Shown here: positions 12,069-53,404 of the stretch, piece after piece | How the letters are laid out: every line of letters begins with the position of its first letter | Position numbering within the stretch: position 1 is the stretch's first letter | NCBI RefSeq assembly: GCF_003611695.1 | Contig: NZ_RAWE01000019.1 | Location: forward strand, 1 to 64,000 | From: Corallococcus carmarthensis | Lineage (GTDB): Bacteria; Myxococcota; Myxococcia; Myxococcales; Myxococcaceae | Length of the DNA: 64,000 bases | Reading direction: 5' to 3' | Program-made: the position numbers and the translations under genes | Notes under the pieces: model-generated | The model's input: only the letters and a program-made list of their open reading frames with translations | The model's database searches: none | Told to the model about the DNA's origin: nothing

Positions 12069-15000
12069 CTACCCGATCTTCTTCTTCTGGTCGTCCACCG
12101 GCGCCGTCCAGGACGCGATGCGGGACTGGAGCTCCCGCGCCACGTTCGTGATGAGCGGCTTGCGCATCATCGTCATGTGCGTGCCCGGCATGTCCACGAC
12201 CTCCACGCCGCCGGTGACCAGCTCCTCCCAGCCGTGGCTCTCACGCGTGTCCGGCCGCTGGCTGGCGCGCAGCAACACGAGCTTCCCGTCGTGCGGCTTC
12301 GCTTCGTACTGCGTGAAGGCGCGCGAGGTGGCCTCGAACACCCGGTACAGGTTGCGCACGCGATCCACGCCCACTTCGGCGATCTGCGTGTCCGCCTGGC
12401 TGCCCAGTTCGTAGAAGTAGTCCACGCGCTCCGGCTGCGTCATGCCGGAGATGCGCTCGCGCAGCTCCATGGGATCGCCTCCGGTGGTGGCCGCCAGCAT
12501 CATGGTGAGCTCGGACGTGAGCATCTCCTCCAGCACGCGTGCCGGCGCCTTGTCCGGCACCATGTGCTGCACGGTGTACGCGTCGATGCTCGCCAGCAGC
12601 GCCACCTCTTCGCCCTGCGCGCGCAGCTGCCGCGCCATCTCGAAGCCGATGATGCCGCCCAGCGACCAGCCCGCCATGTGGTAGGGCCCGTGCGGCTGCA
12701 CCTCGCGCATGGCCGCCAGGTACAGCGCGGCCATCTCCGCCACGGTGCCCAGGGGCTCCTCGCCCTCGGTGCCCCGGGCCTGCAGGCCGTAGCACGGCTG
12801 ATCCGCGTCCAGCTCGCGCGCCAGGTCCACGTAGCAGAGGACGCCACCGCCCGCCGGGTGGATGCAGAACAGCGGCGGCTTCGTGCCCTCCGGCTTCAGC
12901 GCCACCAGCGGCGACCACGCGCGCGCCTCCTGATCCAGGAGCGCGGACAGCTGCTCCACCGTCGACGCCTGGAACAGCGACGCCAGGGGCAGGCTGCGGC
13001 CGGTGAGCTGCTGGATGCGGCCCATCAACTGCACCGCCAGCATGGAGTGGCCGCCCAGGTCGAAGAAGTCGTCGCGGATGCCAATGGGCGACACCCCCAG
13101 CGTCTCCTCCCAGATGCGGACCAGTTGCAATTGCAGCGGCGTACGCGCCACCACCAGCGCGGCGGCCTCCGCGCGCGTGGTGTCCGGCGCGGGCAGCGCG
13201 CGGCGGTCCACCTTGCCGTTGGACGTGAGCGGCAGCGACTCCAGCGGCACGAACGCGGACGGCACCATGTACTCCGGCAGCGTGCGCCGCAGTTGCTCGC
13301 GCAGCTCCTGGGCTCCCGCCACGGTCTGGCCCGGCGCGCCCACCAGGTACGCCACCAGGCGCTTGTCGCCTGGCACGTCCTCGCGCACCAGCACCACGGC
13401 CTCGCGCACGCTCGGATGCGAGAGCAGGCCCGCTTCGATTTCGCCCAGCTCGATGCGGAAGCCGCGCACCTTCACCTGGAAGTCCGCACGGCCCAGGTAC
13501 TCCAGCGTGCCGTTGGGACGCCACCGCGCCAGGTCTCCGGAGCGGTAGAGCCGCGCCCCGGGCCGCGTGCTGAACGGATCCGGGAGGAAGCGCTGCGCGG
13601 TGAGCTCCGGCCGGCCCAGGTAGCCGCGGCCCAGGCCCTCGCCGCCCACGTACATCTCCCCCGTGACGCCCGGAGGTACCGGCTGGCCGTGCGCATCCAG
13701 CACGTACACCTGGAGGTCCGGGATCGGCACGCCCACTTCGCTGCCGCGCCCGGCTTCCGCGTCCGCCGCCTTGAGCGCGCGGTAGGTCACGTGCACGGTC
13801 GTCTCAGTGATGCCGTACATGTTGACGAGCACCGGCGCATTGTCGGCGTGCCGCGCGTACCAAGGCCGCAGGCTGCCGAACTCCAGGGCCTCGCCGCCGA
13901 ACACCACCGTGCGCAGGGACAGGCCCTCGTGGTCGCCCGTGCGCTCCTCGTGCTGGATGAGCTGACGGAAGGCGGACGGCGTCTGGTTGAGCACGGTGAC
14001 GCCCTCGCGCTTGAGCAGCGCGTGGAAGTCCGCGGGCGTGCGGCTGACCTCGTAGGGCACCACCACCAGCTTGCCGCCGTACAAGAGCGCGCCCCACATC
14101 TCCCAGACGGAGAAGTCGAACGCGTACGAGTGGAACAGCGTCCACACGTCCTTCGCGCCGAAGTCGAACCAGTGCTTCGTGCCGTCGAAGAGGCGCACCA
14201 CCTGGGCGTGTTCGATCTGCGCGCCCTTGGGCCGGCCCGTGGATCCGGACGTGTAGATGACGTACGCCAGGTGATGCGGCGCCACGCCGCTGTCCGGCGT
14301 CGTGGTGGGCGCGGAGGCCCACGCGGAGGCATCCGAGTCCAGGCACAGGCGCTTCGCCGCGCCCGACGGCACCACGTCCAGCAGGTGCTGCTGGGTGAGC
14401 ACCACCGGCACGCGCGCGTCCTCCACCATGAACTCCAGGCGCTCACGCGGGTACGCCGGATCCATGGGCAGGTACGCGCCGCCGGCCTTGAGGATGGCCA
14501 GCAGGCCCACCATCAGCTCCAGCGAGCGCTCCACCGCGAGCCCCACCAGGACCTCCGGTCCCACGCCCAGCGAGCGCAGGTGGTGCGCCAGCTGGTTCGC
14601 CCGCGTGTCCAGCTCGCGGTACGTGAGGCGCAGTCCGTCGTAGGTGACCGCGACGGCGTCCGGGGTGCGTGCGGCCTGCGCCTCGAACAGCGTGTGCAGG
14701 CACGCCTCCACCGGGAAGCGGGCGTTGGCGTCGTTCCAGCCCGCCACCACCTGCTTGCGATCCTCCGGCGTGAGCAGCGGCAGTTGGTGCAGGCGCGCAT
14801 CCGGGTTGGCCGCGATGCCCTCCAGCAACACGCCCAGGTGCCGGGCGATCCGCTCGGCGGTGCTCGCGTCGAACAGGTCGGTGTTGTACTCGATCCCGCC
14901 CTCCAGGCCGTTCGCCGTCTCCCCAAGGCCGAGCGCCAGGTCGAACTTCGCGGTGCGGTGCTCCACCTCCACGCCTTCCAGGGTGAGGCCGGGCAGCGTG

Positions 15001-18000
15001 ACCGCCCCCTCCGGCGCGTTCTGCAGCGTCATGGACACCTGGAACAGCGGCGTACGGCTGGTGTCGCGCGTGGGCGCCAGCTCCTCCACCAGCTTCTCGA
15101 ACGGCAGCTCCTGGTGCGCGTACGCGCCCAGTGTCGTCTCCCTCACGCGGCCCAGCAGCTCGCGGAACGTGGGGTCGCCGTCCAGCTTCGTGCGCAGCAC
15201 CAGCGTGTTGACGAAGAAGCCGATGAGGCCCTCCGTCTCCGCGCGCTGCCGGCCCGCGATGGGCGTGCCCACGCTCACGTCGTCCTGTCCGGAGTAGCGC
15301 GACAGCAGCGTCTGCCACGCGGCCAGGAGGACCATGAAGGGCGTGGTGCCCTCCTTGAGCGCCAGGGTCTTCAGCGCTTCCGTCAACGCCGCGCCCAGCT
15401 TCACCGGGACGCTGGCGCCGTGCGACGTCTGCACCGCAGGACGCGGACGGTCCGTGGGCAGCTCCAGCGCGGCAGGCGCACCGGACAGCTGCTGCTTCCA
15501 GTAACCGATCTGCTTCTCCAGCACCTCACCCTGGAGCCAGCCGCGCTGCCAGCCCGCGTAGTCCGCGTACTGCACCGGTAGCTCCGGCAACGACGGCGCG
15601 CCGCCGGAGGCGAAGGCCTTGTAGGACGCGATCATCTCGCGCACCAGCACGCCCATGGACCAGCCGTCGGAGACGATGTGGTGCATGACGAGCAGGAGGA
15701 TGTGCTCCTCCTCGTCCAGCTTGAGCAGCTTCACGCGCAAGAGCGGGCCGGTGGCCAGCTGGAACGGGTGCCCCGCTTCTTCGTCCGCGAGCCGGCGGGC
15801 CTCGTCATGGCGCTCCGGCTCCGCGATGTCGGAGAGGTCCACCACCGGGAGCGGCAGCGACACCGCCGGGTGGATGACCTGCGCGGCCTGTCCGTTCTCC
15901 AGGTGGAACGACGTGCGCAGCGATTCGTGCCGCCGCACCAGCTCCGTGAAGCTCTGCTCCAGCGCCGTCACGTCCAGCGAGCCCTTCAGGCGAAGGACCA
16001 TGGGCACGTTGTAGGCCGGGCTGGACTCATCCAACTGGTGCAGGAACCACAGACGCTGCTGCGCGAACGACAGCGGCAGGCGGCCCTCGCGAGGCAGCGG
16101 CACGATGGCGGGCGCCTGGGTGCCCGCGCCGGCCTGGAGCGCCTGGTCGATGATCACCGACAGCTTCTGCACCGTCGGAGCGTTGAAGACGTCCCGCAGC
16201 TGGAGGTCGATCCGGAAGATGCTCCGGACGCGCGACAGCACCTGCGTGGCCAAGAGCGAGTGGCCACCCAGTTCGAAGAAGTCGTCCGTCGCCCCCACGC
16301 GCTCCACGCGCAACAGCTCGCTCCAGGCTCCGGCGAGCAGCTCCTCCGTGGGCGTGCGCGGCGCGATGAACGCATCGGCTTCCGAGCGCTCGTCACTGGG
16401 GACGGGCAGCGCCTTGCGGTCCACCTTGCCGTTGGACGTCACCGGCAGCGCTTCCAGCACCACGAAGGCCGACGGCACCATGTACTCCGGCAGCGTGCGC
16501 TCCAGGTGCTCACGCAGCCCCTGACGCTCCAGCGACTCCACGTCTCCCGCGACGTACGCCACCAGCCGCTTGTCTCCCGCCACGTCCTCGCGCACGACGA
16601 CGACGGCCTCGCGCACGCCGTAGGCGCCCATGAGGGCCGACTCAATCTCCCCCAGCTCGATGCGGTAGCCACGCACCTTCACCTGGTGGTCGACGCGGCC
16701 CAGGTACTCCAGCGTGCCGTCGGCGCGCCAGCGTGCCAGGTCTCCGGAGCGGTACAGCCGTGCCCCACCGTCCGTGCTGAAGCCGTCCGGGATGAACTTC
16801 TCCGCCGTGAGTTCCGGCCGTCCCAGGTAGCCGCGGCCCACCTGCACGCCGCCGATGTACAGCTCACCCGGCACGCCCACCGGCACCACTTGCAGGTGCG
16901 CATCCAGCACGTACATCCGCGTGTTGGGCAAAGGCTTGCCGATGCGCACCGCGCCCGCGCCCGAATCCTCCGGGGCCACGACGTGCACCGAGCAACCCAC
17001 CACCGTCTCCGTCGGGCCGTACTCGTTGATGAGCCGCGTGCCCGGCGCATGCTTGCGCCAGAAGGCCAGCTCCTCCGAGAAGAGCGCTTCGCCGCCGATG
17101 ACGAAGGCGCCCGTGCGCCCCGCCGCCGCGTCCGCGCCCAGCAGGTCTGACAGCAGCCGCAAGTGGCTGGGCGTCAGCTTCACGAGGCTGAAGCCCGTGC
17201 CCTCACGCAGCACGTCGCCCAGGCCTTCCACTCCTCGCGCCTCGGACACCATCACCACGCCACGCCCGGCCACCAGCGGCGCCAGCATGCTGGTGACGGT
17301 CAGGTCGAACGCGAGCGACGAGTGCACCGGCGCACCCGCTCCCGAGTCGAGCCCGTACGCCGACAAGCACCACGTCAGGTAGTTGGACACGCCCCGGTGC
17401 TCAATCGCCACGCCCTTGGGCTTGCCCGTGCTGCCCGACGTGTAGATGACGTAGGCCAGGTTGCCCGCGCCCACCGCCGTCACGGGCGCGTCTTCGCGCT
17501 CGCGGGAGATGCTGCGCTTCCAGTCGCCATCCAGGCTGATGAGCTGCTGGGTGGTGACGGGCAACTCATCCGCCAGCGAGTCCTGGGTAAGCACCACCGG
17601 CACCTGCGTGTCCTCCAGCATGAAGGACAGGCGGTCCAGCGGGTACTTCGGGTCGAGCGGCACGTACGCGCCGCCGGCCTTGAGCACGCCCATCACGGCG
17701 ATGACCATCTCCAGCGAGCGCTCCAGGCACAGGGCGACCTTCACCTCGGGCCCCACGCCCAACCGGCGCAGGTGGTGCGCCAGTTGGTTGGCCTTCGCGT
17801 CCAGCTGCCGGTACGTCAGTTGCTCACCCTCGAAGGTCGCGGCAATCGCGTCCGGAGTGCGTGCCACCTGCGCCTCGAAGCGCTGGTGGATGCAGGCATC
17901 GCGCGGGAAGTCGGCCTGCGTGTCGTTCCACGTGTTCAACAACAGCTGGCGCTCATCGGCCGGGAGCAGCGGCAGGCGCTGGATGGGGGCGTCCGGCGAA

Positions 18001-39000: not shown

Positions 39001-42000
39001 ATCCGCGCGCCCGGCTGCACCGAGTACGGGTTCGGCACGAAGCGCTCCGCCGTCAGCGACGGCTTGGCCAGGTAGCCGCGCGCGAGGCCCGCGCCCGAAA
39101 GGTACAGCTCGCCCGGCACGCCCTGCGGCACCGGGCGCAGCCACGCGTCCAGCACGTACGCCCGCGAGCCCGTCAGCGGACGGCCAATCGTCGGCTCACG
39201 CCCCGCGTCCTTCTCCACGCGCGTGTACGTCGAATACGTCGTGTCTTCCGTCGGGCCGTAGAGGTTGTAGACGCCCTCCACGCTCTTCAGCCCGTACAGC
39301 GCCTGCGCCAGCCGGTTCAGCAGCGGCTCGCCCGCGAGGTTCACCGTGCGCACCGACTCCGGCACGCTCTGGCTGCGCACCAGCTCCGCCATCGCGGAGG
39401 GCACCGTGTTCACCAGCGTCACCCGGCCCGCGTCCTTCAACGTCGGCAGCGCCAGCGCGTTCTCCGCGACGATGACGGCACCGCCGCTGCTCAGCGGCGC
39501 GAAGACTTCGAAGACGGACAGGTCGAAGTTCAGCGACGTCGCCGCCAGCACGCCGGCCAGCTGCTGCGACGTGAAGGCCGCCGTCGCCCAGTGCAGGAAC
39601 GCCACCGCGCTGCGCTGCTCAATGGCCACACCCTTCGGACGGCCCGTCGAGCCCGACGTGTACAGCACGTACGCCAGGTTCCCCACGCCCGTGCGCGTCG
39701 CGACAGGCGTCGTCGGCTGACGCGCGATCAGCGCCTGGTCCGTGTCCACGCAAACGGTCTGCGCGGAATGCTCGGGCAGTACGCCCAGCAGCTTCTGCTG
39801 CGTCAGCAGCACCGACGCCTTCGCGTCCTCCAGCATCCAGCCCAGGCGCTCACGCGGGTACGCCGGATCCAACGGCACGTATGCGCCGCCCGCCTTCAGC
39901 ACGCCCAGCAGCGCCACCACCATCCGCGCCGAACGCTCCAGGCTCACGCCCACCAGCGTGTCCGGGCCCACGCCCAAGCCGCGCAGGTGGTGCGCCAGCT
40001 GGTTCGCCTGCGCCTCCAGCTGCGAGTACGTCAGCACCTGCCCGTCGAAGTGCACCGCGGGCGCGTCCGGCGTGCGCGCCACCTGCGCCTCGAAGAGCGC
40101 CTGCATCGTCCCGCTCACCGGGTCCGACAGGTCCGTCCCCGACACGTCCTTCAGCAGCGACTGCTGCTCCTGCGCTCCCATCAGCGCGAGGTCGGACAGC
40201 TTCGCGCCCGGACTCGCGACCAGCGACTCCAGCAGCACCCGCAGGTGCTCCATCATCCGCCGCGCCGTCGCCGCGGCGAACAGGTCGGTGTTGTACTCCA
40301 GCGTCCCTTCCAGCCCGCCCGCCGTCTCCGTCAGGTAGAGCGAGAGGTCGAACTTCGCCGTCTTCGAATCGACCTCGTACGGCGACAGCTCCACGCCCGG
40401 CAGGCGGAAGTGCGGCAGCACGTCCTGCTGCAACACGAACAACACCTGGAACAACGGCGCATGGCTCAGGCTGCGCTGCGGCTGCAGCTCCTCCACCAGC
40501 TTCTCGAACGGCACGTCCTGGTGCGCGTACGCACCCAGCGTCGTCTCCTTCACCTGGGCCAGCAGCGCACGAAAGCTCGGGTTGCCTTCCAGCTTCGTGC
40601 GCAGCACCAGCGTGTTGACGAAGAAGCCAATCAGGCCCTCCGTCTCCGCGCGCGTCCGGCCCGTGATGGGCGAACCGACGGAGATGTCCTCCTGCCCGGA
40701 GTAACGCCCCAGCAGCACCTGGAACGCGGCCAGCAGCAGCATGTACGGCGTGACGCCTTCCTGCTTCGCCAACGCGCCCAGCGTGCGGCTCAGGTCCGCG
40801 CCCAGCTTCACCGGCACCGTGGCGCCCCGGTACGTCTGCGCCGCTGGGCGCGCGAAGTCCGTCGGCAGCTCCAGCACCGCAGGGGCCCCGGCCAGCCGCT
40901 GCTTCCAGTAGCCGACCTGCTTCTCCAGCACCCCGCCCAGCAGCCACTCCCGCTGCCACTGCGCGAAGTCCGCGTACTGCACCCGCAGCTCCGGCAGCGG
41001 AGAGCCCCGGCCCGCACGGAACGCGTCGTAGAGCGCGGCGACCTCACGCACGAGCACGCCCATGGACCAGCCGTCGGAGACGATGTGGTGCATCGTCACC
41101 AGCAGCACGTGCTTCGCCTCACCCAGCTTCAGCAATCGCGCGCGCACCAGCGGACCCGCGCCCAGGTCGAAGGGACGCACGGCCTCTTCGTCCACGCACC
41201 GCCGCGCCTCGGCCTCGCGCGACGCCTCCGCGAAGCCCGTCAGGTCCACCACCGGAAGCTCGAAGGCCTTCGCCGGATGGATGAGCTGCACCGCCTCGCC
41301 GTTCTCCTCTCGGAACGTCGTGCGCAGCGACTCGTGCCGGCGGACGATCTCCTCCAGGCTCCGCCGCATCGCCTCCGCGTCCAGCGCGCCGTCCAGCCGC
41401 ACCGCGCCCGGGATGCTGTAGAGCGCGCTGCCCTGCTCCAGCCGGTCCAGGAACCACAGGCGCTGCTGCGCGAACGACAGCGGTTGCGTGGCACCACGCG
41501 GCCGGGGCGCGAGCACCGCCGCCTTCGGCGCCTCCTGCTTCGAGGCCGTGATGCGCTGGGCTAGATCCACCAGGCTCGGCCCCTGGAGCAGCAGCTCCAT
41601 GGGCAGCGCCACGCCCAGCCCCTTCTCCACGGCGTGCGCCAGCTCCACCGCGCTCAGCGAATCCAGGCCGTACCGCGTGATGGGCTCACGCACGTCCACC
41701 GTCTTCGCGGGCATCCGCAGCTGCTCCGCCACGCGCTCCACCAGCCACGCCAGCGTGGACCGCACGGGCGCCGACACTTCGCCACCCGCGGACCCGGCGG
41801 GGGCTTCGGTGGGAGAAGGCGAGGTGGTGGACTTCCCCGGCTCCGGATCAGGCTCCGGGCCGTCGAATCCCGGCTCGCGCCACACCAGCACCGTGCGCAG
41901 CTCGTCCGCGAGGAACCCCGCCTTGCACGCGTGCCGCTGGATCTTCCCACTGGAGGTCTTCGGGATGCTGCCCGGCTCGATCAGCGCCACGGCGTGCACC

Positions 42001-43655
42001 TGCACCTCGTGCCGCTCGGCCACGCGCTGGCGGATCTCCTTGACCGCCGCCTCCGCCATGTCCACCTGCTTGCGGAGGTTGCCCGCCTTGCGCAGGTCGA
42101 TCTCCTGCACCAGCACCAGGCGCTCCTCGCCCGCCACCTCCAACGACACCGCCGCGACACAACCGGCCCGCAGCGCCGGGTGGCTCTCCTCCACCGTCAG
42201 CTCGATGTCGTGCGGATAGTGGTTGCGGCCGCGGATGATAATCAGGTCCTTGGACCGGCCGGTGACGAACAGCTCCCCGTCCCGCAGGAAACCCAGATCC
42301 CCGGTGCGCAGGAACGGCCCCGCGTCACTGCCCGCGAGCCGCGCCTGGAAGGCATCCTGCGTCGCCTCCGCCTTGTTCCAGTACCCCAGCGCCACGCTGG
42401 GACCGTCCACCCAGATCTCCCCCACCCGGGAGGGCGCGCACTCCTCGCGCGTCTGGGGATCCACGATGACCACGCGATGCCCCGGCCGCTCCACGCCGCA
42501 GCCCACCAGCAGGCGCGCGTCCGGCTTCGCCGCCTCCACCTCCACGGCCTGACGCTGCTCCAGCGACGGCACATCCACCGCCAGCATGACCGGCGCCGCC
42601 GCCGCCTTTCCTCCCGAGACGAGCAGCGTCGCTTCCGCCAGCCCGTAGCAGGGATAGAAGGACTCGCGCCGGAAGCCGTGCGGCTTGAACGTGGCCACGA
42701 ACCGGTCCAGCGTCGCCGGGCGGATGGGCTCCGCGCCGCTGAAGGCCAACCGCCACGAGCTCAGGTCCAGCGACTGCCGCTCCTCCTCGGAGATGCGGCG
42801 CACGCACAGGTCGAACGCGAAGTTGGGCCCGCCGCTGACGGTGGCCTTGAGGCGGCTGATGGTCTCCAGCCACACCCGGGGCTGCTTGAGCATGGTGAGC
42901 GGCGACATCAACGCCACGGGAGACGCCACGTACAGCGGCGTGAGGATGCCGCCAATCAAGCCCATGTCGTGGTACGGCGGCAGCCAGATCACGGTCGAGT
43001 CGCCCGGGCCGAACTCGAAGGCGTCCGAGATCAGCGCCAGGTTGTGCGTCAGGTTGCCGTGGCTCAGCATCACGCCCTTGGGCGAGCCCGTGGACCCCGA
43101 CGTGTACTGGAGGAACGCCAGCGTGGACGCGTTCACGTCCGGCGGCGTCCAGTCCGCTTCCAAACCCGCGGCGATCTCGTCCGTCGCCACCCAGTGCAGC
43201 GAGCGCAGATCCGGCGCCTGCTCGAAGACGAACTCCGTCATGCTCAGGATGCCGGACGTGGTGAGCACCACCGTCGCGTTCGCGTCCTGGATGATCGCCC
43301 GCAGGCGCGGCAGCGTCCGCTCCAGCCGCATCGGATCCGGCGGGTACGCCGGCACCGCGACGAGCCCCGCGTAGAGGCACCCGAAGAACCCCGCCACGTA
43401 CTCCAGGCCGGGCGGGTACAGCAGCATCACGCGCTCGCCCGGCTTCGCCACCGCGCGCAGCGCCACCGCGATCCGCCGCGCCCTTGCGTCCAGCCCCGCG
43501 TAACTCAGCGTCCCGTCGTCCTGCCCCGCATCATCCAGGAAGGTGTACAGCGGCTGTTCGGACAGGACATCGGCCCGGTTCCGCAGAATTTCGACGAGGG
43601 TGGAATGCGAAGGCGTCAGCTCAACGGAACGGGAACGCGACAAGGAAGAACCCAT
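12069..43655 (-). CDS. Giant lipopeptide NRPS: FAAL-ACP-(C-A-T)x9-TE
   Basis: One uninterrupted frame encodes about 10,528 residues (roughly 1.1 MDa). It builds a fatty-acylated nonapeptide. Order: fatty-acyl-AMP ligase (1-600), ACP (Ser666), nine condensation-adenylation-carrier modules, thioesterase (Ser10331). The carrier serines, at 1715, 2764, 3814, 4875, 5948, 7012, 8069, 9133 and 10204, are all in frame, so no frameshift splits the gene. No epimerization, methylation or cyclization domain is visible. I took ATG 43655 (MGSSLSRSRS) as the start because the extra 33 codons from the ATG at 43754 do not look like a FAAL N-terminus; neither has a clear ribosome-binding site. By pocket residues the product should be acyl-Ala(?)-X-Phe-Val-Asp-Asn-aromatic-Asn-Thr. 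A CmlA-type hydroxylase gene is divergent from it. It depends on a phosphopantetheinyl transferase, and perhaps an MbtH protein, encoded elsewhere. Confidence 0.97.
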   Translation of the reverse strand: MGSSLSRSRSVELTPSHSTLVEILRNRADVLSEQPLYTFLDDAGQDDGTLSYAGLDARARRIAVALRAVAKPGERVMLLYPPGLEYVAGFFGCLYAGLVAVPAYPPDPMRLERTLPRLRAIIQDANATVVLTTSGILSMTEFVFEQAPDLRSLHWVATDEIAAGLEADWTPPDVNASTLAFLQYTSGSTGSPKGVMLSHGNLTHNLALISDAFEFGPGDSTVIWLPPYHDMGLIGGILTPLYVASPVALMSPLTMLKQPRVWLETISRLKATVSGGPNFAFDLCVRRISEEERQSLDLSSWRLAFSGAEPIRPATLDRFVATFKPHGFRRESFYPCYGLAEATLLVSGGKAAAAPVMLAVDVPSLEQRQAVEVEAAKPDARLLVGCGVERPGHRVVIVDPQTREECAPSRVGEIWVDGPSVALGYWNKAEATQDAFQARLAGSDAGPFLRTGDLGFLRDGELFVTGRSKDLIIIRGRNHYPHDIELTVEESHPALRAGCVAAVSLEVAGEERLVLVQEIDLRKAGNLRKQVDMAEAAVKEIRQRVAERHEVQVHAVALIEPGSIPKTSSGKIQRHACKAGFLADELRTVLVWREPGFDGPEPDPEPGKSTTSPSPTEAPAGSAGGEVSAPVRSTLAWLVERVAEQLRMPAKTVDVREPITRYGLDSLSAVELAHAVEKGLGVALPMELLLQGPSLVDLAQRITASKQEAPKAAVLAPRPRGATQPLSFAQQRLWFLDRLEQGSALYSIPGAVRLDGALDAEAMRRSLEEIVRRHESLRTTFREENGEAVQLIHPAKAFELPVVDLTGFAEASREAEARRCVDEEAVRPFDLGAGPLVRARLLKLGEAKHVLLVTMHHIVSDGWSMGVLVREVAALYDAFRAGRGSPLPELRVQYADFAQWQREWLLGGVLEKQVGYWKQRLAGAPAVLELPTDFARPAAQTYRGATVPVKLGADLSRTLGALAKQEGVTPYMLLLAAFQVLLGRYSGQEDISVGSPITGRTRAETEGLIGFFVNTLVLRTKLEGNPSFRALLAQVKETTLGAYAHQDVPFEKLVEELQPQRSLSHAPLFQVLFVLQQDVLPHFRLPGVELSPYEVDSKTAKFDLSLYLTETAGGLEGTLEYNTDLFAAATARRMMEHLRVLLESLVASPGAKLSDLALMGAQEQQSLLKDVSGTDLSDPVSGTMQALFEAQVARTPDAPAVHFDGQVLTYSQLEAQANQLAHHLRGLGVGPDTLVGVSLERSARMVVALLGVLKAGGAYVPLDPAYPRERLGWMLEDAKASVLLTQQKLLGVLPEHSAQTVCVDTDQALIARQPTTPVATRTGVGNLAYVLYTSGSTGRPKGVAIEQRSAVAFLHWATAAFTSQQLAGVLAATSLNFDLSVFEVFAPLSSGGAVIVAENALALPTLKDAGRVTLVNTVPSAMAELVRSQSVPESVRTVNLAGEPLLNRLAQALYGLKSVEGVYNLYGPTEDTTYSTYTRVEKDAGREPTIGRPLTGSRAYVLDAWLRPVPQGVPGELYLSGAGLARGYLAKPSLTAERFVPNPYSVQPGARMYRTGDRVRWLATGELEYLGRIDFQVKVRGFRIELGEVESALASQAGVRESVVVVREDVPGDKRLVAYVAGASLDAAELRKGLKQRLPEYMVPSAFVVLDALPLTPNGKVDRKALPVPEGQSAQGQYVAPRTATEEQVATLFAQLLRMERVGAEDSFFELGGHSLLAMQLVSRLRAAVGVEVPLRSLFELSTVASLAAFIDGKQTAAANLPPLKRVSREGVLPLSFAQQRLWFLDRLEQGSALYNVPGAVQLEGALHVEALRLTLQEIVARHESLRTTFREDNGQAAQIIHAASRMDLPVVDLSTLAEAAREAEARRCVDEEAVRPFDLGAGPLFRTKLLKLGEAKHVLLVTMHHIVSDGWSMGVLVREMAALYEAHSQGRTVPLPELAVQYADFAQWQREWLLGGVLEKQVGYWKQQLAGAPAVLELPTDFARPAVQTYRGATVPVKLGAELSRTLNALAKQEGVTPYQLLLTAFQVLLARYSGQDDISVGSPIAGRTQAETEGLIGFFVNTLVLRTKLSGNPSFQQVLKQVRETTLGAYAHQDVPFEKLVEELQPQRSLSHAPLFQVMFALQQDVLPHLQLSGVELSPYEVESKTAKFDLTLFLTETAGGLEGTLEYNTDLFTAATARRMTEHLRVLLESVAVRPMAKVFDLSLMGAQEKQTLLKDVSGTDLASPVRGTMQALFEAQAARTPDAPAVYFDGQVLTYAQLEAQANQLAHHLRGMGVGPDTLVGVSLERSARMVVALLGVLKAGGAYVPLDPAYPRDRLGWMLEDAQAPVVLTQQKLLGVLPEHSARNVFLDTDWETIARHPASRVDPRTGVRNLAYVLYTSGSTGRPKGVAIEQRSVVAFLHWATAFFTPQQLSGMLASTSLNFDISVFEVFAPLSVGGAVIVAENALALPALKDARRVTLVNTVPSAMAELLRSQGVPETVRTVNLAGEPLLNRLAQAVYGLKNVEAVYNFYGPTEDTTYSTYLRVEKGAAREPTVGRLLTGSRGYVLDAWLRPVPQGVPGELYIAGAGLSRGYLAKPSLTAEKFIPNPFSQDPGERMYRTGDRVRWLANGELEYFGRIDFQVKVRGFRIELGEVESVLSSQAGVRESVVVVREDVPGDRRLVAYVAGASLDVAELRKGLKSRLPEYMVPSAFVVLNALPLNPNGKVDRKALPVPEAQSSQNQYVAPRTATEEQVATLFAQLLRMERVGAEDSFFELGGHSLLAMQLVTRLRTAFGVEVPLRSLFESPSVATLAASVDSAISGRDASKAPAITPRPRNATQSLSFAQQRLWFLDQLEQGSAFYNVAGGVKLEGALHVEAMRRALEEIVRRHEALRTTFRDENGQAVQVIHPAKAFELPVVELSGAQELEARRLADEEAARPFDLSTGPLMRARLLKLGETKHVLLVTMHHIVSDGWSMGVLVREVAALYEAQVRNQQSPLPELAVQYADFAQWQREWLLGGVLEKQVGYWKQQLAGAPAVLELPTDFARPAVQTYRGATVPVKLGADLSRTLNALAKQEGVTPYMLLLASFQVLLARYSGQEDVTVGSPIAGRTQAETEGLIGFFVNTLVLRTKLSGNPSFQQVLKQVRETTLGAYAHQDVPFEKLVEELQPQRSLSHAPLFQVMFALQQDVLPHLKLSGVELSPYEVESKTAKFDLTLSLTETAGGLEGTLEYNTDLFAAATARRMMEHLRVLLESVAARPSAKLSDLALMGAQERHQVLVAWNDTRGEVAGDVTFPALFEAQVRRAPGAEALVFEDSSLTYAQLDARANQLAHHLRTLGVGPEVRVALCVERSLDLAVAMLGIQKAGGAFVPLDPSYPRERLSFMLEDSGAPVLVTQDSLSKQLPSEGLRVVRMDLEAAHLQTLPDTAPASGANADTLAYVIYTSGSTGRPKGTLLPHRGLNNTARQAAAAKGLGTGRRVLQYAASSFDASVWEVFSTLVSGATLVLSSRDRLLPDEPLRTLLKSQRITTVTLTPSVLAQLGTEGLDGLSTIVSAGEALPVEMARKWGQGRTLINAYGPTETTVCATLTHGGVRAERLTIGKPLANVRVYVLDALHQPVPVGVAGELYVAGEGLARGYQGRPDMTAEKFVPNPFSQEPGARLYRTGDRVRWLADGELEYLGRIDHQVKVRGFRIELGEIEAVLLHHADVREAAVVVREDVPGDKRLVGYVVPHPERTVDAASLRKHLKDGVPEYMVPSAFVVLGALPMTPAGKVDRKALPAPTGALTRPDAYVAPRTPTEVRVAALFARVLTVERVGAEDSFFELGGHSLMATQLVSRLRGEFQVELPLRALFESPTVAALAARVDEATGAERKFKTPPLKPASRDGALPLSFDQERLWLFEQLTPGTPIYNVPSAARLSGDLDVEVLRRGLEEIVRRHEALRTVFRQDASGAPVQVVLPVQPFVLPLVDLAALPAEQAEAEARKRLNGEAARPFDLVNGPLLRAQLLRLNAREHVLCLVQHHIVVDGWAVGVFMHELQALYTAFLKGEPSPLPALPVQYADYTLWHRDWLSGDVLEQQIAWWKQQLAGAPRISLRTDAPRPAGDRFHGDSRRFHLSPDLTSRIEALGRGEGATLFMVLLAAFDALLHRRTGQDDIVVGTDIANRAREELESLVGFFTNQLVLRTQVTGDLSFRALLDRVRKGTLDAYEHQDLPFGTLVQALKPPREPGGQLFNVKFVLENAPLPALQLPGLELSLLDAETNGTAKWDLLVVVFPWQGGLTVTVEHNTDVLDRTSVERLFAHFETLLRAVVDDPERRIGTLPLLTPDERNTLAAWNDRARTYPHGQPVSRVFEAQVARAPDAVAVSFEGETLTASQLNARANQLAHHLRALGVRPGKRVGVSLERSLDLVVAVLGIVKAGGAYVPLDPSFPTERLSLLIEDAGLSALVSVSALADELPAQWLQVVCLDDDAAALAKRPDVNLDTAPGSEDELYVLYTSGSTGRPKGVSVPHRAVVRLVCGPEWVSLTPRDVFLQLAPLAFDASTFELWGAMLNGAKLAVFPPRAPTLDELGEVITREGVSTLWLTAGLFHQMVDGNLEGLRPVRQLLAGGDVLSPAHVLRVLEQLPGCRVINGYGPTENTTFTACYPVEGAGALGISVPIGRPINGTRVHVLNASLEPVPLGAPGELFAGGDGLAHGYLNQPELTAEKFIPDPFSQVPGARLYRTGDQVRFRADGALEFLGRIDQQVKVRGFRIEPGEIETVLRGHASVRDVTVAVQEVAGEKALVAYVVTEEGAEPLGVDTMRAFLHDKLPAYMVPTALMALDALPLTPNGKVDRRALPVPGSERPQMSTAYAAPRTAEETALCEVWADVLGVERVGIDDSFYDLGGDSIRSIQLIAKLRERGLDLPMVELLRQPTIRALGNLVHAAPSKAAAQAVPGSEPFSLLSDADRARLPADVEDAYPVAVLQAGMLFQSELDQASGMYHDATSYHLEMALDEAKMHQLLAELARRHSILRTSFNLTGYEQPLQLVHREAQVPLVIHDVRHVPASEQDALLARLVEADRCRPFEWSRAPLLRFAIYRRTEKTLQFSLIFHHAILDGWSLATLLSELFRGYVNLLRGTPAPGAAPLAVTYRQFVALEHQSLTSGEGERFWKSRLAEVDRPAPRAPLPAGQEPVLSMRQQDVPAALQQGLLRVAQAANVPLKTVLLAAHLRVRALMEGQRSVVTGVVANGRPETADSERMVGLFLNSIPFPVTLEDGTWLDLVRQVAKADGDIWPHRRYPMGRMQQQLGGQRLFETIFNFVHFHVAGGLSQLEGVRLLEETPSTAWMELPLSTLFLQRPDTGALMLVLRTNGTQRDADQTEALAGYYFRALEAIAANPHARHEHARLLPDVERQKLLVEWNATDAAPAGDTCVHEHFAVHAARTPDAVAVVCDDGQLTYGELNRRANQLAHWLRARGVGPDVRVGLLTERTPDAIVGMLGILKASGAYVPLDPSHPAERLRTVLEDARASLVVTQASLAAHVADASRGHVCLDSDAALLSRERDDNPKRLGDAGSLAYVIFTSGSTGRPKGVAVEHRQLNHYVEGVTRRLELPPAASFASVSTLAADLGHTAVFPTLSGGGTLHLISKERATDPAALGDYFQRHAVDCLKIVPSHLTALLSSQSPERVLPRKRLVLGGEASDPALIARVHALVPGLEVFNHYGPTETTVGVLTWKVERGTQLSTTASVPLGRPLPNARMYVLDAAMQPLPIGTPGELFIGGAGVARGYLDQPVLTAERFLEDPFSPEPGARVYRTGDRVRYLDDGALEFLGRVDFQVKVRGYRIELPEIEAALSGLPGMAEAVVLAREDVPGDKRLVAYVVAVPGHTLEAGALRQGLKARLPDYMVPSAFVMLAALPLTSNGKVDRRALPAPEQDAADARQAYVEPRTPTEELLAALWSRLLGVDRVGVHDNFFELGGHSLLAMQVASRIREAFSVELPLRMLFEAPSVAELARRVDVLVAQGRGVQAPPLVALTRAERMPLSFAQQRLWFLNQLEPDSAFYNMPLSVRLDGTLDVAALEQAFTELVRRHESLRTTFSTREGQPAQVVHPAAPFSLTKVDLSGVPEAQREAEASRQANEEAQRPFRLDTGPLLRVKLFKLAAEQHVMLATMHHIVSDGWSLGVLVREMAALYEAFATGRTPALPELPVQYADYAGWQRDWLQGDVLARQLAYWKQQLSGAPAALELPTDRPRPAVQTYRGASIQFRMGKHATDALKALALKEGATPFMVLLTAWQVLLARYSGQDDVSVGTPIAGRGRTETEGLIGFFVNTLVLRAKLGGNPTFRELLAQVRETTLGAYAHQEVPFEKLVEELAPTRDTSRTPLFQVLLSHRNAPVPELKAPGLTLRAMPLEHRTAQFDLNMTHSEVDGELRGAMEYNSDLFDATTAERMLAHLGVLLEGVAASPDAPIQRLPLLPAEERQLLLTTWNDTRADFPRDACIHQRFEAQVARTPDAIAATFEGEQLTYRQLDAKANQLAHHLRRLGVGPEVKVALCLERSLEMVIAVMGVLKAGGAYVPLDPKYPLDRLSFMLEDTQVPVVLTQDSLADELPVTTQQLISLDGDWKRSISREREDAPVTAVGAGNLAYVIYTSGSTGKPKGVAIEHRGVSNYLTWCLSAYGLDSGAGAPVHSSLAFDLTVTSMLAPLVAGRGVVMVSEARGVEGLGDVLREGTGFSLVKLTPSHLRLLSDLLGADAAAGRTGAFVIGGEALFAEELAFWRKHAPGTRLINEYGPTETVVGCSVHVVAPEDSGAGAVRIGKPLPNTRMYVLDAHLQVVPVGVPGELYIGGVQVGRGYLGRPELTAEKFIPDGFSTDGGARLYRSGDLARWRADGTLEYLGRVDHQVKVRGYRIELGEIESALMGAYGVREAVVVVREDVAGDKRLVAYVAGDVESLERQGLREHLERTLPEYMVPSAFVVLEALPVTSNGKVDRKALPVPSDERAEADAFIAPRTPTEELLAGAWSELLRVERVGATDDFFELGGHSLLATQVLSRVRSLFNVDLQLRDVFNAPTVEKLAVLVDDALRAGAGVSTSPIVPLPRDGQLPLGLAQQRLWFLHQMEPDSALYNIVLPVRLDGALDIEVLEQAFTELVRRHESLRTTFHAEGGQAVQRIHAPAPASLQVVDLRGLSDADREAEAKRLTDLEMNRGFRLDTGPLMRALVLRMSDTEHVLLLSLHHIITDGWSMGLLVREIATLYAAYREGRASPLPELTVQYADYAGWQRDWLRSDVMGKHVDYWRQQLSGAPAALELPTDFPRPAVMTYSGGGVTVKIPDSLSRSLKDLCREEGVTPFMLLLAAWQVLLSRHAGQDDLTVGSPVSGRGRAETEALIGFFINTMVLRAKLPADATFRDVLTQARETVLGAHSHQDVPFEKLVEELQPVRDTSRSPLFQVWFVLEAEELSAQVSLPGLTLRTYEVESRTAKFDLALSLVDAAEGFLGRLAYNSDLFSHATAERMVQRFVMLLEGIVANVGQPVRALPMMSEQERHQVLVAWNDTRADFPRDACIQQLVAAHAEQTPDAVAVVYEDQSLTYAELDAKANQLAHHLRRRYVGPEVRVALCVERSLELVVGMLGILKAGGAFVPLDPAYPIDRLDYMLADSGAPVLVTQESLVDTLPTGGRLLIQIDADWDSIERMPEEAPATSVAAGNLAYVIYTSGSTGRPKGTLLQHQGLVNTALQAGQVHRYAPGSRVLQYAASSFDACVAEVFGTLVAGATLVLAPRDRLLPDEPLRTLLQEQRITAVTLTPSVLSRLGTEGLDGLRSVVSAGEALSVELARKWGEGRLMLNAYGPTEATVCATLTHEGVDPERLTIGRPWANVRVYVLDDTLGPVPPGVAGELYVAGVGLARGYQGRPELTAERFLPNPFSAEPGARLYRTGDRVRWLATGELEYLGRIDHQVKVRGFRIELGEVESVLLHHAEVREAAVVVREDVPGDKRLVAYVVAAEEGSLDASELRQHLKGEVPEYMVPSAFVVLDALPMTPAGKVDRKALPAPTESRAERSEVEIVAPSTPTEELLVTVWTEVLGVERVGVRDNFFELGGHSLLATQVASRIRETFGVELPVRMLFEAPSVAELARRVDALVAEGMGVQAPPLVALAREERMPLSFAQQRLWFLNQLEPDSAFYNIPLSIRLEGALDVAALEQAFTELVRRHESLRTTFPTKEGQPAQVVHPAAPFLLGMMDLSGLPEAQREAEASRQANEEAQRPFRLDTGPLLRVKVLKLEAEQHVLLATMHHIVSDGWSMGVLVREMAAFYEAFATGRTPSLPELPVQYADYASWQRGWLRGDVLAQQMTYWKQQLSGASAALELPTDRPRPAVQTYRGSSVPVKLGQELTESLKALARKEGATPFMVLLAAWQVLLARYSGQDDVSVGTPIAGRGQTETEGLIGFFVNTLVLRAKLGGNPSFRELLARVRETTLGAYAHQEVPFEKLVEELAPTRDTSRSPLFQVMLSFQNAPVSELKAPGLTLRAVPLEHRTAQFELKMTLTEDGGELRGAMEYNTDLFDATTAERMVSHLKVLLEGAAASPDAPIQRLPLLPADERQLLLNTWNDTQADFPRDACIHQRFEAQVARTPDAIAATFEGEQLTYRQLDAKANQLAHHLRRLGVGPEVKVALCLERSLEMVIAVMGVLKAGGAYVPLDPKYPLDRLSFMLEDTQVPVVLTQDSLADELPVTTQQLISLDGDWKRSISREREDAPVTAVGAGNLAYVIYTSGSTGKPKGVAIEHRGVSNYLTWCLSAYGLDSGAGAPVHSSLAFDLTVTSMLAPLVAGRGVVMVSEARGVEGLGDVLREGTGFSLVKLTPSHLRLLSDLLGADAAAGRTGAFVIGGEALFSEELAFWRKHAPGTRLINEYGPTETVVGCSVHVVAPEDSGAGAVRIGKPLPNTRMYVLDAHLQVVPVGVPGELYIGGVQVGRGYLGRPELTAEKFIPDGFSTDGGARLYRSGDLARWRADGTLEYLGRVDHQVKVRGYRIELGEIESALMGAYGVREAVVVVREDVAGDKRLVAYVAGDVESLERQGLREHLERTLPEYMVPSAFVVLEALPVTSNGKVDRKALPVPSDERSEADAFIAPRTPTEELLAGAWSELLRVERVGATDDFFELGGHSLLATQVLSRVRSIFRIDLQLRDVFNAPTVQKLSVIIDQALQAGAGTQAPAIVPLPREGRLPLSFAQQRLWFLHQLDESSPAYNVPMVLRLKGSLDVTALEQSFTELVRRHESLRTSFHLENGQAAQVIHPAVSLPLPVVDLSDIAEPERHDEARRLADEEAGHPFQLATGPLLRVKLLKLDEEEHILLLVMHHIVSDGWSMGVLVREMIASYKAFASGGAPSLPELPVQYADYAGWQRGWLQGEVLEKQIGYWKQQLSGAPAALELPTDRPRPAVQTSHGASVPVKLGAALTEALKTLALKEGTTPFMVLLAAWQTLLSRYSGQDDVSVGTPIAGRQRAETEGLIGFFVNTLVLRTKLDGDPTFRELLGRVRETTLGAYAHQELPFEKLVEELAPTRDTSRTPLFQVSMTLQNAPEGAVTLPGLTLEGVEVEHRTAKFDLALGLGETANGLEGGIEYNTDLFDASTAERIARHLGVLLEGIAANPDARLHQLPLLTPEDRKQVVAGWNDANARFPVEACLHTLFEAQAARTPDAVAVTYDGLRLTYRELDTRANQLAHHLRSLGVGPEVLVGLAVERSLELMVGLLAILKAGGAYLPMDPAYPRERLEFMVEDARVPVVLTQQHLLDVVPSGAAKRLCLDSDASAWASAPTTTPDSGVAPHHLAYVIYTSGSTGRPKGAQIEHAQVVRLFDGTKHWFDFGAKDVWTLFHSYAFDFSVWEMWGALLYGGKLVVVPYEVSRTPADFHALLKREGVTVLNQTPSAFRQLIQHEERTGDHEGLSLRTVVFGGEALEFGSLRPWYARHADNAPVLVNMYGITETTVHVTYRALKAADAEAGRGSEVGVPIPDLQVYVLDAHGQPVPPGVTGEMYVGGEGLGRGYLGRPELTAQRFLPDPFSTRPGARLYRSGDLARWRPNGTLEYLGRADFQVKVRGFRIELGEIEAGLLSHPSVREAVVLVREDVPGDKRLVAYLVGAPGQTVAGAQELREQLRRTLPEYMVPSAFVPLESLPLTSNGKVDRRALPAPDTTRAEAAALVVARTPLQLQLVRIWEETLGVSPIGIRDDFFDLGGHSMLAVQLMGRIQQLTGRSLPLASLFQASTVEQLSALLDQEARAWSPLVALKPEGTKPPLFCIHPAGGGVLCYVDLARELDADQPCYGLQARGTEGEEPLGTVAEMAALYLAAMREVQPHGPYHMAGWSLGGIIGFEMARQLRAQGEEVALLASIDAYTVQHMVPDKAPARVLEEMLTSELTMMLAATTGGDPMELRERISGMTQPERVDYFYELGSQADTQIAEVGVDRVRNLYRVFEATSRAFTQYEAKPHDGKLVLLRASQRPDTRESHGWEELVTGGVEVVDMPGTHMTMMRKPLITNVARELQSRIASWTAPVDDQKKKIG
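12072..12905 (-). other. NRPS C-terminal type I thioesterase domain
   Basis: The last 270 or so residues are an alpha/beta-hydrolase thioesterase that releases the peptide by hydrolysis or cyclization. The N-terminal strand is PLFCIHPAGGG. The nucleophile elbow is GWSLGG with Ser10331 (codon 12665-12663), and the terminal catalytic histidine is in PGTHMTMM (about 12190-12166). Whether it hydrolyses or cyclizes cannot be read from sequence; the side chains of Thr, or of a beta-hydroxylated residue, could act as nucleophile. Confidence 0.88.
12920..16090 (-). other. NRPS module 9 (C9-A9-T9), predicted Thr
   Basis: C9 has HHIVSDGW (about 15685-15658). A9 has FDFSVWEMW, LNQTPSAF, VVFGGEA and NMYGITETTVHV, giving D-F-W-N-V-G-M-V-H-K, the threonine pattern. 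T9 (LGGHSMLAVQL) carries Ser10204. Confidence 0.75.
16145..19280 (-). other. NRPS module 8 (C8-A8-T8), predicted Asn
   Basis: C8 has HHIVSDGW (about 18877-18850) and resembles C6. The A8 pocket is D-L-T-K-V-G-E-V-G-K, the same as A6. Over A and the linker only two residue differences were noticed (Ala/Ser in GGEALF-x-EEL and in SDER-x-EAD). T8 carries Ser9133. Confidence 0.7.
16180..17900 (-). repeat. Near-identical NRPS repeat, copy B (A8 domain)
   Basis: This stretch of about 1.7 kb, covering most of A8 and its carrier linker, matches 22543-24263 almost base for base at a constant offset of 6,363 bases (exactly 2,121 codons). Silent differences are rare inside it and become frequent just outside, for example in the A8/C8 linker near 17930. 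Limits are by eye. Confidence 0.85.
19330..22450 (-). other. NRPS module 7 (C7-A7-T7), predicted aromatic (Trp/Phe)
   Basis: C7 starts PLGLAQQRLWFLHQM and has HHIITDGW (about 22046-22019). A7 is a paralogue of A3, but the pocket is D-A-A-T-V-A-A-V-C-K: the tryptophan at position 239 is alanine (FDACVAEVF). This enlarges the pocket floor, so a bulkier aromatic such as Trp is plausible. T7 carries Ser8069. Confidence 0.6.
22500..25645 (-). other. NRPS module 6 (C6-A6-T6), predicted Asn
   Basis: C6 has HHIVSDGW at about 25239-25213. A6 has FDLTVTSML, VKLTPSHL, VIGGEA and NEYGPTETVVG, giving D-L-T-K-V-G-E-V-G-K, the asparagine-type pattern. T6 carries Ser7012. The A domain is nearly identical to that of module 8. 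Confidence 0.7.
22543..24263 (-). repeat. Near-identical NRPS repeat, copy A (A6 domain)
   Basis: This is the partner of 16180-17900, two modules upstream in the protein. Both copies specify the same predicted residue (Asn). The constant in-frame offset means the intervening C7-A7-T7-C8 unit kept its length. Limits are by eye. Confidence 0.85.
25690..28900 (-). other. NRPS module 5 (C5-A5-T5), predicted Asp
   Basis: C5 is of a different lineage: it starts FSLLSDADRARLPADVEDAY and its active site is HHAILDGW (about 28420-28393). A5 has AADLGHTAVF and LKIVPSHL, giving D-L-T-K-V-G-H-V-G-K, the aspartate pattern. T5 carries Ser5948. Confidence 0.72.
28920..32050 (-). other. NRPS module 4 (C4-A4-T4), predicted Val
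   Basis: C4 begins PLSFDQERLWLFEQL and has HHIVVDGWAVG (about 31637-31611), differing from C1-C3. The A4 pocket reads D-A-F-W-L-G-G-T-F-K, the valine pattern. T4 has LGGDSIRSIQL with Ser4875, unlike the LGGHS of all other carriers in the protein. LGGDS normally precedes epimerization domains, yet none follows here. Confidence 0.72.
32085..35190 (-). other. NRPS module 3 (C3-A3-T3), predicted Phe
   Basis: C3 is nearly identical to C2 over about 800 bases. A3 contains FDASVWEVF, TLTPS, VSAGEA and NAYGPTETTVCA, giving the pocket D-A-W-T-V-A-A-V-C-K, the classic phenylalanine pattern of GrsA/TycA-type domains. T3 carries Ser3814. Confidence 0.75.
34000..34800 (-). repeat. Near-identical NRPS repeat, copy B (C3 domain)
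   Basis: Most of the C3 coding region matches 37141-37941 at an offset of 3,141 bases (1,047 codons, one module). Long stretches near 34240-34360 differ by only a few bases. Limits are by eye. Confidence 0.75.
35250..38345 (-). other. NRPS module 2 (C2-A2-T2), small residue uncertain
   Basis: C2 has HHIVSDGW at about 37943-37918. The A2 pocket reads D-I-F-N-N-A-F-T-Y-K, differing from A1 only by L-to-I at position 236 and L-to-F at position 322. A1 and A2 are close paralogues, but the F at 322 narrows the pocket, so the substrate may differ (Ala, Gly or another small residue). T2 carries Ser2764. Confidence 0.5.
37141..37941 (-). repeat. Near-identical NRPS repeat, copy A (C2 domain)
   Basis: This is the partner of 34000-34800, one module upstream in the protein. 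It is less uniform than the A6/A8 pair, with scattered silent changes. Confidence 0.75.
38390..41500 (-). other. NRPS module 1 (C1-A1-T1), predicted Ala-like
   Basis: C1 (from PLSFAQQRLWFL, active site HHIVSDGW at about 41090-41067) couples the fatty acyl group to residue 1. A1 has core YTSGSTGRPKG (about 39670-39628). Pocket residues aligned to GrsA PheA read D-L-F-N-N-A-L-T-Y-K, a code I associate with Ala in myxobacterial or pseudomonad saframycin-type systems; this is from memory. T1 carries Ser1715. Confidence 0.6.
41540..43655 (-). other. NRPS loading module: fatty-acyl-AMP ligase + ACP
   Basis: Residues 1 to about 600 form a fatty-acyl-AMP ligase, which activates a fatty acid with ATP and passes it to the adjacent carrier without forming acyl-CoA. 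The ATP loop YTSGSTGSPKG is at about 43110-43075. The FAAL-type GRNHYPHDIE segment, after TGRSKDLIII, is at about 42250-42197. The carrier (about 41770-41540) has GLDSLSAVEL with the phosphopantetheine Ser666. This arrangement starts a lipopeptide. Chain length cannot be predicted. Confidence 0.9.
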
Positions 43656-43966
43656 CAGGAAAGCCGGAGCGCACCGCAAGGGTTTCAGTGGGCCGACTTG
43701 CCGTGCCCCACACGGGTACTCCGTGTAGGTGACACAGGCGCCCTTGCAATGCATCCGGGGGGAGCGGAACTCGATACGAGAATACCACTACGAATGGGTT
43801 CTACCGAACTTGAACAAATTGCTCGAATCGCTCAAATTCGCCTGTCAGCTCTGCTTCCTGGTCTTCAGCACGCGCCCCGTCCTGCCTTGACTCCGCGAGT
43901 TCCATTCTCGGGACCGCTTGGGGTTCTGTCCGGGTTGGGGTGCCTCCCCGATTGCACGTACCCGCC
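43656..43966. promoter_or_regulatory. Divergent promoter region between NRPS and CmlA-like gene
   Basis: These 311 bases hold no convincing gene. Bases about 43765-43845 form an island distinctly richer in A+T than the rest of the window, with TTGAACAAATT (43810-43820) and a second CAAATT near 43833. It must serve leftward transcription of the 31.6-kb NRPS gene and rightward transcription of the hydroxylase gene. I could not fix -35/-10 boxes. The NRPS frame stays open to 43754, so part of this gap could be coding if translation starts there. Confidence 0.5.
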
Positions 43967-50487: not shown

Positions 50488-51482
50488 GCCGAGGCCCGCT
50501 GCTGCTCATCGCGCTGTTCGCCCTGGCCCTGCTCGGCCCGGCGTCCGTGCGCGCCCAGGTACCCAACGGCGCGGATCCGGAGGTCGCCGCCCTGCGCTCG
50601 TCCTTCGAATACGGCAAGTACGCCGAGGTGCTGGAGCGCGCCGGTCAGCGCATCGACCGCGGTGACCTGCCCGAAGAGGACCTCGTGGAGCTGCACAAGC
50701 TCGCGGGCCTGTCCGCCTTCAACCTCAACAAGACGGACGAAGCCGAACGCCACCTGCGCGCCGTGCTCCGGCTGGACCCCGACTTCAGCCTGGACCCCTT
50801 CGTCGTCCCGCCCCCGGCCGTCGCCTACTTCGAGGACCTCAAGAACCAGATGTCCGGCGAGCGCGATTTCCTCCGCCAGGAACAGCGCCTGCGCGTGGAG
50901 CGCGAGAAGGCCGAACAGGAGCGCCGGGAACAGGAGCGCGTCGCCCTGGAGACGCAGCGCCGCCGCGCGGAGGAGCTGGCCCGCCAGGTCACCGTGCGCA
51001 CCGTGGAGAAGCGCAACTTCCTGGTCAACTTCGTCCCCTTCGGCGCCGGCCAGTTCCAGCAGGGCCGCAACGGCATGGGCATCGCCTTCGCGGCCACCGA
51101 AGGCGCCATGGCCATCACCAGCATCATCGCGTTCTTCGCGTACGACTCGCTCTTCGAGCAGCGGTTCGTGAACCTGGACAACGTGCTGGACGAGGACGGC
51201 CGCGCGTCCATCCCGGTGCGCTACATCCCCACGGACCGCGCCCGGCAGGCGGACACCTGGCAGCTGCTCAAGCTCGCGTCCGCGACCGGCTTCTACACCG
51301 TCTACACCCTGGGCGTGGTGGACGCCGTCTACCACCACGAGGACCAGGTGGTGACCAGCACCACCGTGGAGTCCCGCCCCGAACCGAAGCCCTCTCCTTC
51401 CGTCTCCCAGGCCGCGCCGCCGCGCGTGCGGCTGTACTCCACCCGTGGTGGGCTGGGCGCCGGCTTCTCCCTGACGTTCTAG
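50484..51482 (+). CDS. Exported TPR/coiled-coil membrane protein
   Basis: This 332-residue protein begins with a signal peptide (MSRGPLLLIALFALALLG, probable cleavage after SVRA). Residues about 30-110 hold TPR-like helices (FNLNKTDEAERHLRAVLRLD), and then a highly charged coiled coil of R/E repeats (about 125-175). A hydrophobic region (MAITSIIAFFAYDSLF and GFYTVYTLGVVDAVYH) follows, so it is probably anchored in a membrane from the periplasmic side. The ATG at 50484 overlaps the pkn4 stop by 4 bases, which strongly suggests translational coupling. It may assemble with the outer part of Pkn4. No named family is recognised. Confidence 0.78.
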   Translation: MSRGPLLLIALFALALLGPASVRAQVPNGADPEVAALRSSFEYGKYAEVLERAGQRIDRGDLPEEDLVELHKLAGLSAFNLNKTDEAERHLRAVLRLDPDFSLDPFVVPPPAVAYFEDLKNQMSGERDFLRQEQRLRVEREKAEQERREQERVALETQRRRAEELARQVTVRTVEKRNFLVNFVPFGAGQFQQGRNGMGIAFAATEGAMAITSIIAFFAYDSLFEQRFVNLDNVLDEDGRASIPVRYIPTDRARQADTWQLLKLASATGFYTVYTLGVVDAVYHHEDQVVTSTTVESRPEPKPSPSVSQAAPPRVRLYSTRGGLGAGFSLTF

Positions 51483-51505
51483 CCCCAGAAACCCAAAGTC
51501 CGCCC

Positions 51506-53404
<1,899 letters not shown>

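Follow-up and report, generated by a model that had tools for sequence, protein, structure and literature searches.

NRPS giants encoded by a single gene are already known. The Kolossin A synthetase of Photorhabdus is described, in an excerpt of PMC9002308, as the product of an uninterrupted NRPS gene of 49.1 kb with 15 modules, and huge NRPSs are named as the commonest huge-protein architecture in bacteria in the excerpted text of PMC11573180. In the cryopeptins of Pedobacter a CmlA/FrsH-like enzyme and modAA C domains have been proposed to account for dehydrovaline (excerpt of PMC12181424). PMC10880069, likewise available as an excerpt, describes in-line hydroxylases for dehydrovaline, carriers of the T_E type preceding DHC domains, and AmbE as a dehydrating C domain whose donor is a Glu derivative. 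Recombination between NRPSs, in the excerpted account of Baunach et al. (PMC8097286), consists mostly of swaps of A-core subdomains.

The 64,000-nucleotide stretch of Corallococcus carmarthensis DNA analysed here (the window) carries on its minus strand a single NRPS gene (12069..43655) with the order FAAL-ACP-9x(C-A-T)-TE. It resembles the FAAL-initiated single-chain lines of the same myxobacterial genus in its FAAL loading, its C-A-T modules and its size, those frames being comparable or larger, but it has no E domain, has a C5 of the DHC type and differs in module content. With the cryopeptin NRPS it shares a metallo-β-lactamase/CmlA-like enzyme, modAA-type C domains and valine; that system, as far as the excerpt of PMC12181424 describes it, differs in having two NRPS genes, a starter C domain instead of FAAL, a pentapeptide/heptapeptide product with several dehydrovalines, and a host from another phylum. 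The myxovalargin NRPS of Corallococcus coralloides 1071 belongs to the same genus and makes a product with both dehydrovaline and hydroxyvaline, the modification being assigned to MxvH, whereas the excerpted text of PMC9853869 gives it five genes (mxvA-E), E domains and release with agmatine by a terminal C domain, with no type I TE. Identity with the myxovalargin synthetase was rejected on these features, since the window has one gene, no E domain and a terminal TE. The Kolossin A synthetase is like the window line in being encoded by an uninterrupted giant gene, but is larger and makes another product (PMC9002308, excerpt). A search of open-licence PMC papers did not find the window's line in print.

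The ORF listing places the gene in a minus-strand frame at 12069..43754 that is 10,561 residues long counted from the first ATG and 10,572 codons long from stop to stop. All five orthologues share with the window protein a start of the form MG[SP]SL[SP]R, and the residues upstream of it vary in both length and sequence, so that 43655 is a better start than 43754; translation from 43655 gives 10,528 residues. The window contains no N and the NRPS translation has a terminal stop only. Orthologous frames without an internal stop are present in at least five of the 15 other genomes of the genus (G005, G007, G009, G010 and G013); counted from the shared start they code for 10,499-10,508 residues, which are 87% identical to the window protein and 94-97% identical among themselves. 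The initial annotation had described a single uninterrupted frame that was not a product of shadow frames, to be given up if independent data held a stop or frameshift. Both points are borne out by the five orthologous frames, none of which contains such a break, and a frame artefact was accordingly rejected. As judged from these sequences the assembly line is real and conserved and is not an assembly artefact, because the same uninterrupted frame occurs in five genomes of the genus, three of them (G005, G009 and G013) consisting of a single contig.

The surroundings are conserved as well. In all five orthologous loci the flanks are syntenic, over approximately 3.5-4.1 kb downstream (93-94% nucleotide identity) and approximately 3.4 kb upstream (approximately 91-92%), and in two of the five (G007 and G010) the upstream synteny extends to approximately 10-12 kb. 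The dN/dS ratio is 0.18 between G009 and G013, a sign that purifying selection maintains the gene; it is 0.32-0.35 between the window and each of the five orthologues when the replaced block described below is included. Further out in the window, an IMS (Y-family polymerase-like) frame adjoins a RecA-like frame on the minus strand (1-2421), as in mutagenesis operons of the ImuB/ImuA type. On the plus strand (48493-53404), upstream on the side of the hydroxylase gene, lie a serine/threonine kinase and a σ54 activator (GAF, with weak FHA-like matches), a pairing typical of myxobacteria.

The order of domains and the ten carriers given by the initial annotation were both recovered with Pfam and motif searches, the carriers as nine motif carriers and an ACP whose GLDSL serine was read by eye. 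The N-terminal loading domain (41886..43655, approximate limits) is predicted to be of the FAAL type from matches to PF00501 and PF23024 (DIP2-like AMP domain, 41.3 bits) that lie above the cutoff. It is followed by the ACP (41532..41744), which corresponds to the third of three PF00550 stretches within the first 3,249 residues and also matches PF23297 at residues 671-741, below the cutoff (24.0 against 27). An HHxxxDG scan finds nine C domains, and ten adenylation-type YTSG motifs correspond to the FAAL and nine A domains. The nine module carriers comprise seven LGGHSL, one LGGHSM and one LGGDSI motif. All nine C-A-T modules and the terminal TE (12126..12878; PF00975, GWSLG) are in the one frame, as in a lipopeptide NRPS of the FAAL type, and no E domain was found anywhere in the protein. 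C1 (40152..41489), C2 (37005..38348) and C3 (33867..35189) are supported by Pfam and motif; C1 did not form a separate starter clade in the C-domain tree. C4 (30705..32039), C6 (24300..25640), C7 (21108..22445), C8 (17937..19280) and C9 (14751..16088) were likewise identified by Pfam. The whole-genome Pfam search thus lists eight C domains out of nine; C5 (27546..28883) is divergent and falls outside the list, and its assignment rests on the motif, a self-made profile and dedicated searches. All of these domains are on the minus strand.

The size of the protein, which had been put forward as remarkable, proved to be ordinary. At least 21 NRPS-type frames longer than 10,572 codons, reaching 14,988, occur in 13 of 59 genomes; they were counted among the matches listed for FAAL, A or C queries, so that these counts are lower bounds. 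One of them, of 10,803 codons, is in the same genome (contig C288), in which 111 matches to the condensation-domain family were scored. Given the frequency of longer frames in the genus, the Kolossin A gene and the survey of huge proteins, the size is ordinary for the genus and by itself unimportant. What was said earlier of the frame, the carriers and the domain order thus stands, and what was said of the rarity of the size does not. Less ordinary are three features absent from that description: a dehydrating-type C5 behind a valine carrier, an adjacent CmlA-type hydroxylase and a replacement at position 6.

The specificity codes were extracted from the nine A domains and are DLFNNALTYK (A1), DIFNNAFTYK (A2), DAWTVAAVCK (A3), DAFWLGGTFK (A4; 29160..30680), DLTKVGHVGK (A5; 25851..27458), DLTKVGEVGK (A6; 22719..24278), DAATVAAVCK (A7; 19548..21086), DLTKVGEVGK (A8; 16356..17915) and DFWNVGMVHK (A9). 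We take them to specify small, small, Phe, Val, Asp, Asn, aromatic, Asn and Thr, respectively, the A4 code being read as valine. The literature search found a paper for DLTKVGHVGK only, which is given as Asp in PMC10391617 and as mostly Asp in PMC12283262; none was found for the A1 and A2 codes. Across the six genomes the codes of A1, A3, A5, A8 and A9 are identical, those of A2 and A4 deviate in a single genome each (DIFNNALTYK in G013 and DALWLGGTFK in G010), and those of A6 and A7 in the window differ from the other five. Modules 1 and 2 are close duplicates, A1 and A2 being 86.5% identical in amino-acid sequence in the window and 87-88% in two orthologues.

From known families, the FAAL would activate a fatty acid and hand it over to the ACP, and C1 would couple it to residue 1. 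The enzyme line thus probably joins one fatty acid to nine amino acids, the modules adding the residues predicted by their Stachelhaus codes and the TE releasing a linear or cyclic lipononapeptide. The valine of module 4 would sit on the LGGDSI carrier, which is of the T_E type, and C5 would remove water from 3-hydroxyvaline and couple the dehydrovaline so formed to Asp5. We consider it reasonably likely that the gene encodes a complete single-protein lipopeptide line, with a lipononapeptide product that contains dehydrovaline, formed via 3-hydroxyvaline, at position 4 and with module 6 replaced. Within this model the chances of the dehydrovaline step are judged to be about even, because close relatives of the hydroxylase stand beside lines with no C5-type domain among the matches listed and because only one of five non-orthologous Val-plus-C5 lines has a CmlA gene nearby.

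The candidate source of the hydroxyl group is encoded on the plus strand at 43940..45568, separated from the divergent NRPS gene by 284 bp (43656..43939; ORF listing and flank alignment). This 542-residue protein has the make-up of a CmlA-type non-haem diiron β-hydroxylase: a CmlA_N domain (PF18456, 287.8 bits), a metallo-β-lactamase fold and the metal motif, which is kept as HSHPDH against HNHQDH. Its best PDB matches are a non-haem diiron monooxygenase (8a90, 308.3 bits) and CmlA (284.6 bits), with 519-522 residues aligned, and its counterparts in the five orthologous loci share 92-94% identity with it. In the preferred reading it would hydroxylate the β-carbon of Val4, a target that is contested. 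Among the matches listed, the relatives of the hydroxylase are 86% identical in G011 and G003 and 56-64% identical in G022, G030 (contig C33) and G014. None of the lines beside these relatives has a C5-type domain among the matches listed, and in G003, G030 and G014 the C5-type matches are found on different contigs or at a distance of approximately 180 kb.

All six CmlA-adjacent lines, that of the window included, have aromatic modules and five have Asp modules, some of the lines ending at contig ends. Because these modules are shared, a reasonable alternative to Val4 as the target would be Asp5 or an aromatic residue: the line would be the same, the CmlA-type enzyme would act on that residue, and C5 would only condense or would use a hydroxyl set in trans. 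The substrate of CmlA itself is aromatic, which fits such a target. So does the distribution of the genes, since four of the five other listed Val-plus-C5 lines have no CmlA gene nearby; the one non-orthologous line with such a gene among the matches listed is in G030 (contig C4). In G005, G010, G012 and G002 the matches to PF18456 are at other places, two of these contigs being only 31-35 kb long. Beside the other Val-plus-C5 lines no oxygenase was found among the frames scanned, which instead contained penicillin amidases, a glycosyltransferase and an ABC transporter. However, the co-occurrence of CmlA genes with aromatic and Asp modules is weak evidence, because such modules are common in the genus also without a nearby CmlA gene. 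T4 (28947..29159, approximate limits) is moreover the one carrier of the T_E type in the line, and a CmlA-like enzyme, modAA C domains and valine come together in the proposal for the cryopeptins (excerpt of PMC12181424). On balance we regard an aromatic or Asp5 target as rather unlikely. Asp5 as a sure target was rejected, Asp modules being frequent without CmlA, and the literature search found no paper on CmlA together with hydroxyaspartate.

In G005 and G010, the penicillin-amidase genes lie immediately upstream of FAAL-NRPS genes that include a Val-plus-C5-type module (L089, 218-2761; L091, 11589-14096). They possibly encode prodrug-cleaving acylases.

C5 itself follows T4, which carries the line's single LGGDSI motif, behind the valine-code A4. 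In the C-domain tree it sits on a long branch, with support 0.99 as the sister of C domains located behind E domains. This placement and the LGGDSI carrier would also suit an ordinary DCL domain, with module 4 having lost its epimerase and Val4 being L or D and unmodified. The best PDB relatives of C5 are, however, McyA (8jbr, 327.5 bits) and AmbE (7r9x, 198.2 bits), as for a domain of the DHC/CmodAA type, and not DCL domains; the control, C4, has Txo1/Txo2 at the top (314 and 313 bits), with AmbE at 84.2 bits and McyA at 64.9 bits. The donor is a Glu derivative in AmbE-C2 and Ser in McyA, and would be Val in the window line. Among the matches listed from 59 genomes, 17 further domains that are not orthologues resemble C5 at 38-54% identity, with scores from 277 bits upwards; the next match listed scores 169.9 bits. 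These 17 C5-type domains group separately, likewise lack an E domain and have only Thr (eight), Val (five) and Ser (four) donor codes. These are donors that fit a dehydrating domain, as Ser and Thr are already hydroxylated and Val needs hydroxylation. A GGDS[ILM] carrier directly precedes the C5-type domain, with no E domain between, in 19 of 19 cases (the 17 listed, the window and G009). We therefore hold an ordinary DCL domain to be improbable, and a dual C/E domain was rejected, as HH[ILMV]xxxxGD has no match anywhere in the protein.

The active site of C5 was compared by eye with the charged residues of AmbE-C2, which were taken from the excerpt of PMC10880069. The equivalent of AmbE R1605 is Lys in C5 and in McyA and is Tyr or Phe in the other eight C domains; the four acidic AmbE residues correspond to W, E, L and L in C5, so that three of the four are not acidic. 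HHxxxDG is kept in all nine listed C5-type domains behind Val or Ser codes and is recognisable in none of the eight behind Thr codes (L077-L081 and L083-L085).

The second departure from the relatives is at module 6. In 250-residue steps, identity between the window and its orthologues drops from approximately 93% to 45-77% between residues 5751 and 8250. In 20-residue steps, the window is closer from approximately residue 5955 to 7034 (T5 to T6) to module 7/8 of the orthologues than to their own positions. This block, T5-C6-A6-T6 (22554..25913, approximate limits), resembles T7-C8-A8-T8. The A6 of the window shares 99.6% identity with its own A8 and 96% with A8 of G009, against 53% with A6 of G009, and it has an Asn code where the five orthologues have a Phe code. 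Among the matches listed from 39 genomes, C6 is closest to its own C8 (87%) and to C8 of the orthologues (85%), with the next at 70%. In the same set A7 is a mosaic, closest to A6/A7 of the orthologues (80-83%), followed by A3 of the orthologues and of the window itself (72-74%) and then by matches at 66%. As the nearest listed relatives of both C6 and A7 are modules of the same line, acquisition of module 6 from a different assembly line was rejected.

Within the window dS is 0.083 for A6/A8 and 0.208 for C6/C8, lower than the values of 0.283 (A8) and 0.317 (C8) between the window and G009. This difference suggests that the module 6 unit was copied from module 8 in the lineage of the window and that its A domain was later homogenised. 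The C-domain tree groups window C6 with C8 of G009 (support 0.745), which speaks weakly against a copy in the window's lineage. No orthologous outgroup that would polarise the swap was found, and the NRPS lines that neighbour related CmlA genes, not being orthologues, cannot serve for this purpose. Compared over 523 codons, A6 and A8 have 35 codon differences, of which 33 are synonymous and eight lie between the FDLT (A4) and NEYGPTE (A5) motifs, and collapse of the near-identical repeats, a risk raised in the initial annotation, was rejected on these differences. That an assembly error copied A8 into position 6 is very improbable: the draft assembly does consist of 530 contigs and modules 6 and 8 do share one exact tract of 563 bp, but these codon differences, the many more sites at which C6 and C8 differ and the replacement of the T5 and T6 ends as well all argue against it.

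Replacement of module 6 by a T-C-A-T unit from module 8 would have changed Phe6 of the five relatives into Asn6 in the window, and the identity profile places the edges of the exchanged unit in the carrier domains T5 and T6. As in the recombination treated in the excerpt of PMC8097286, A-domain specificity is changed inside a line; the window differs in that a whole T-C-A-T unit is involved. Its edges in T domains resemble the XUT fusion sites of PMC12668312, as excerpted. We tentatively propose that a recent one-module exchange by self-copying, together with five sister genomes whose line at this locus is otherwise alike, forms a natural pair with and without the exchange, in a line in which a CmlA and DHC pair would act on valine to give a dehydrovaline lipononapeptide.

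If these readings are correct, the locus would provide a lipopeptide line encoded by one gene, with dehydrovaline predicted in its product, in a genus where most NRPS lines have yet to be connected with a product. It would also offer a case from nature in which an entire T-C-A-T unit was replaced inside a line, relatives without the change serving as controls, and may as such be useful for the choice of fusion points in NRPS engineering.
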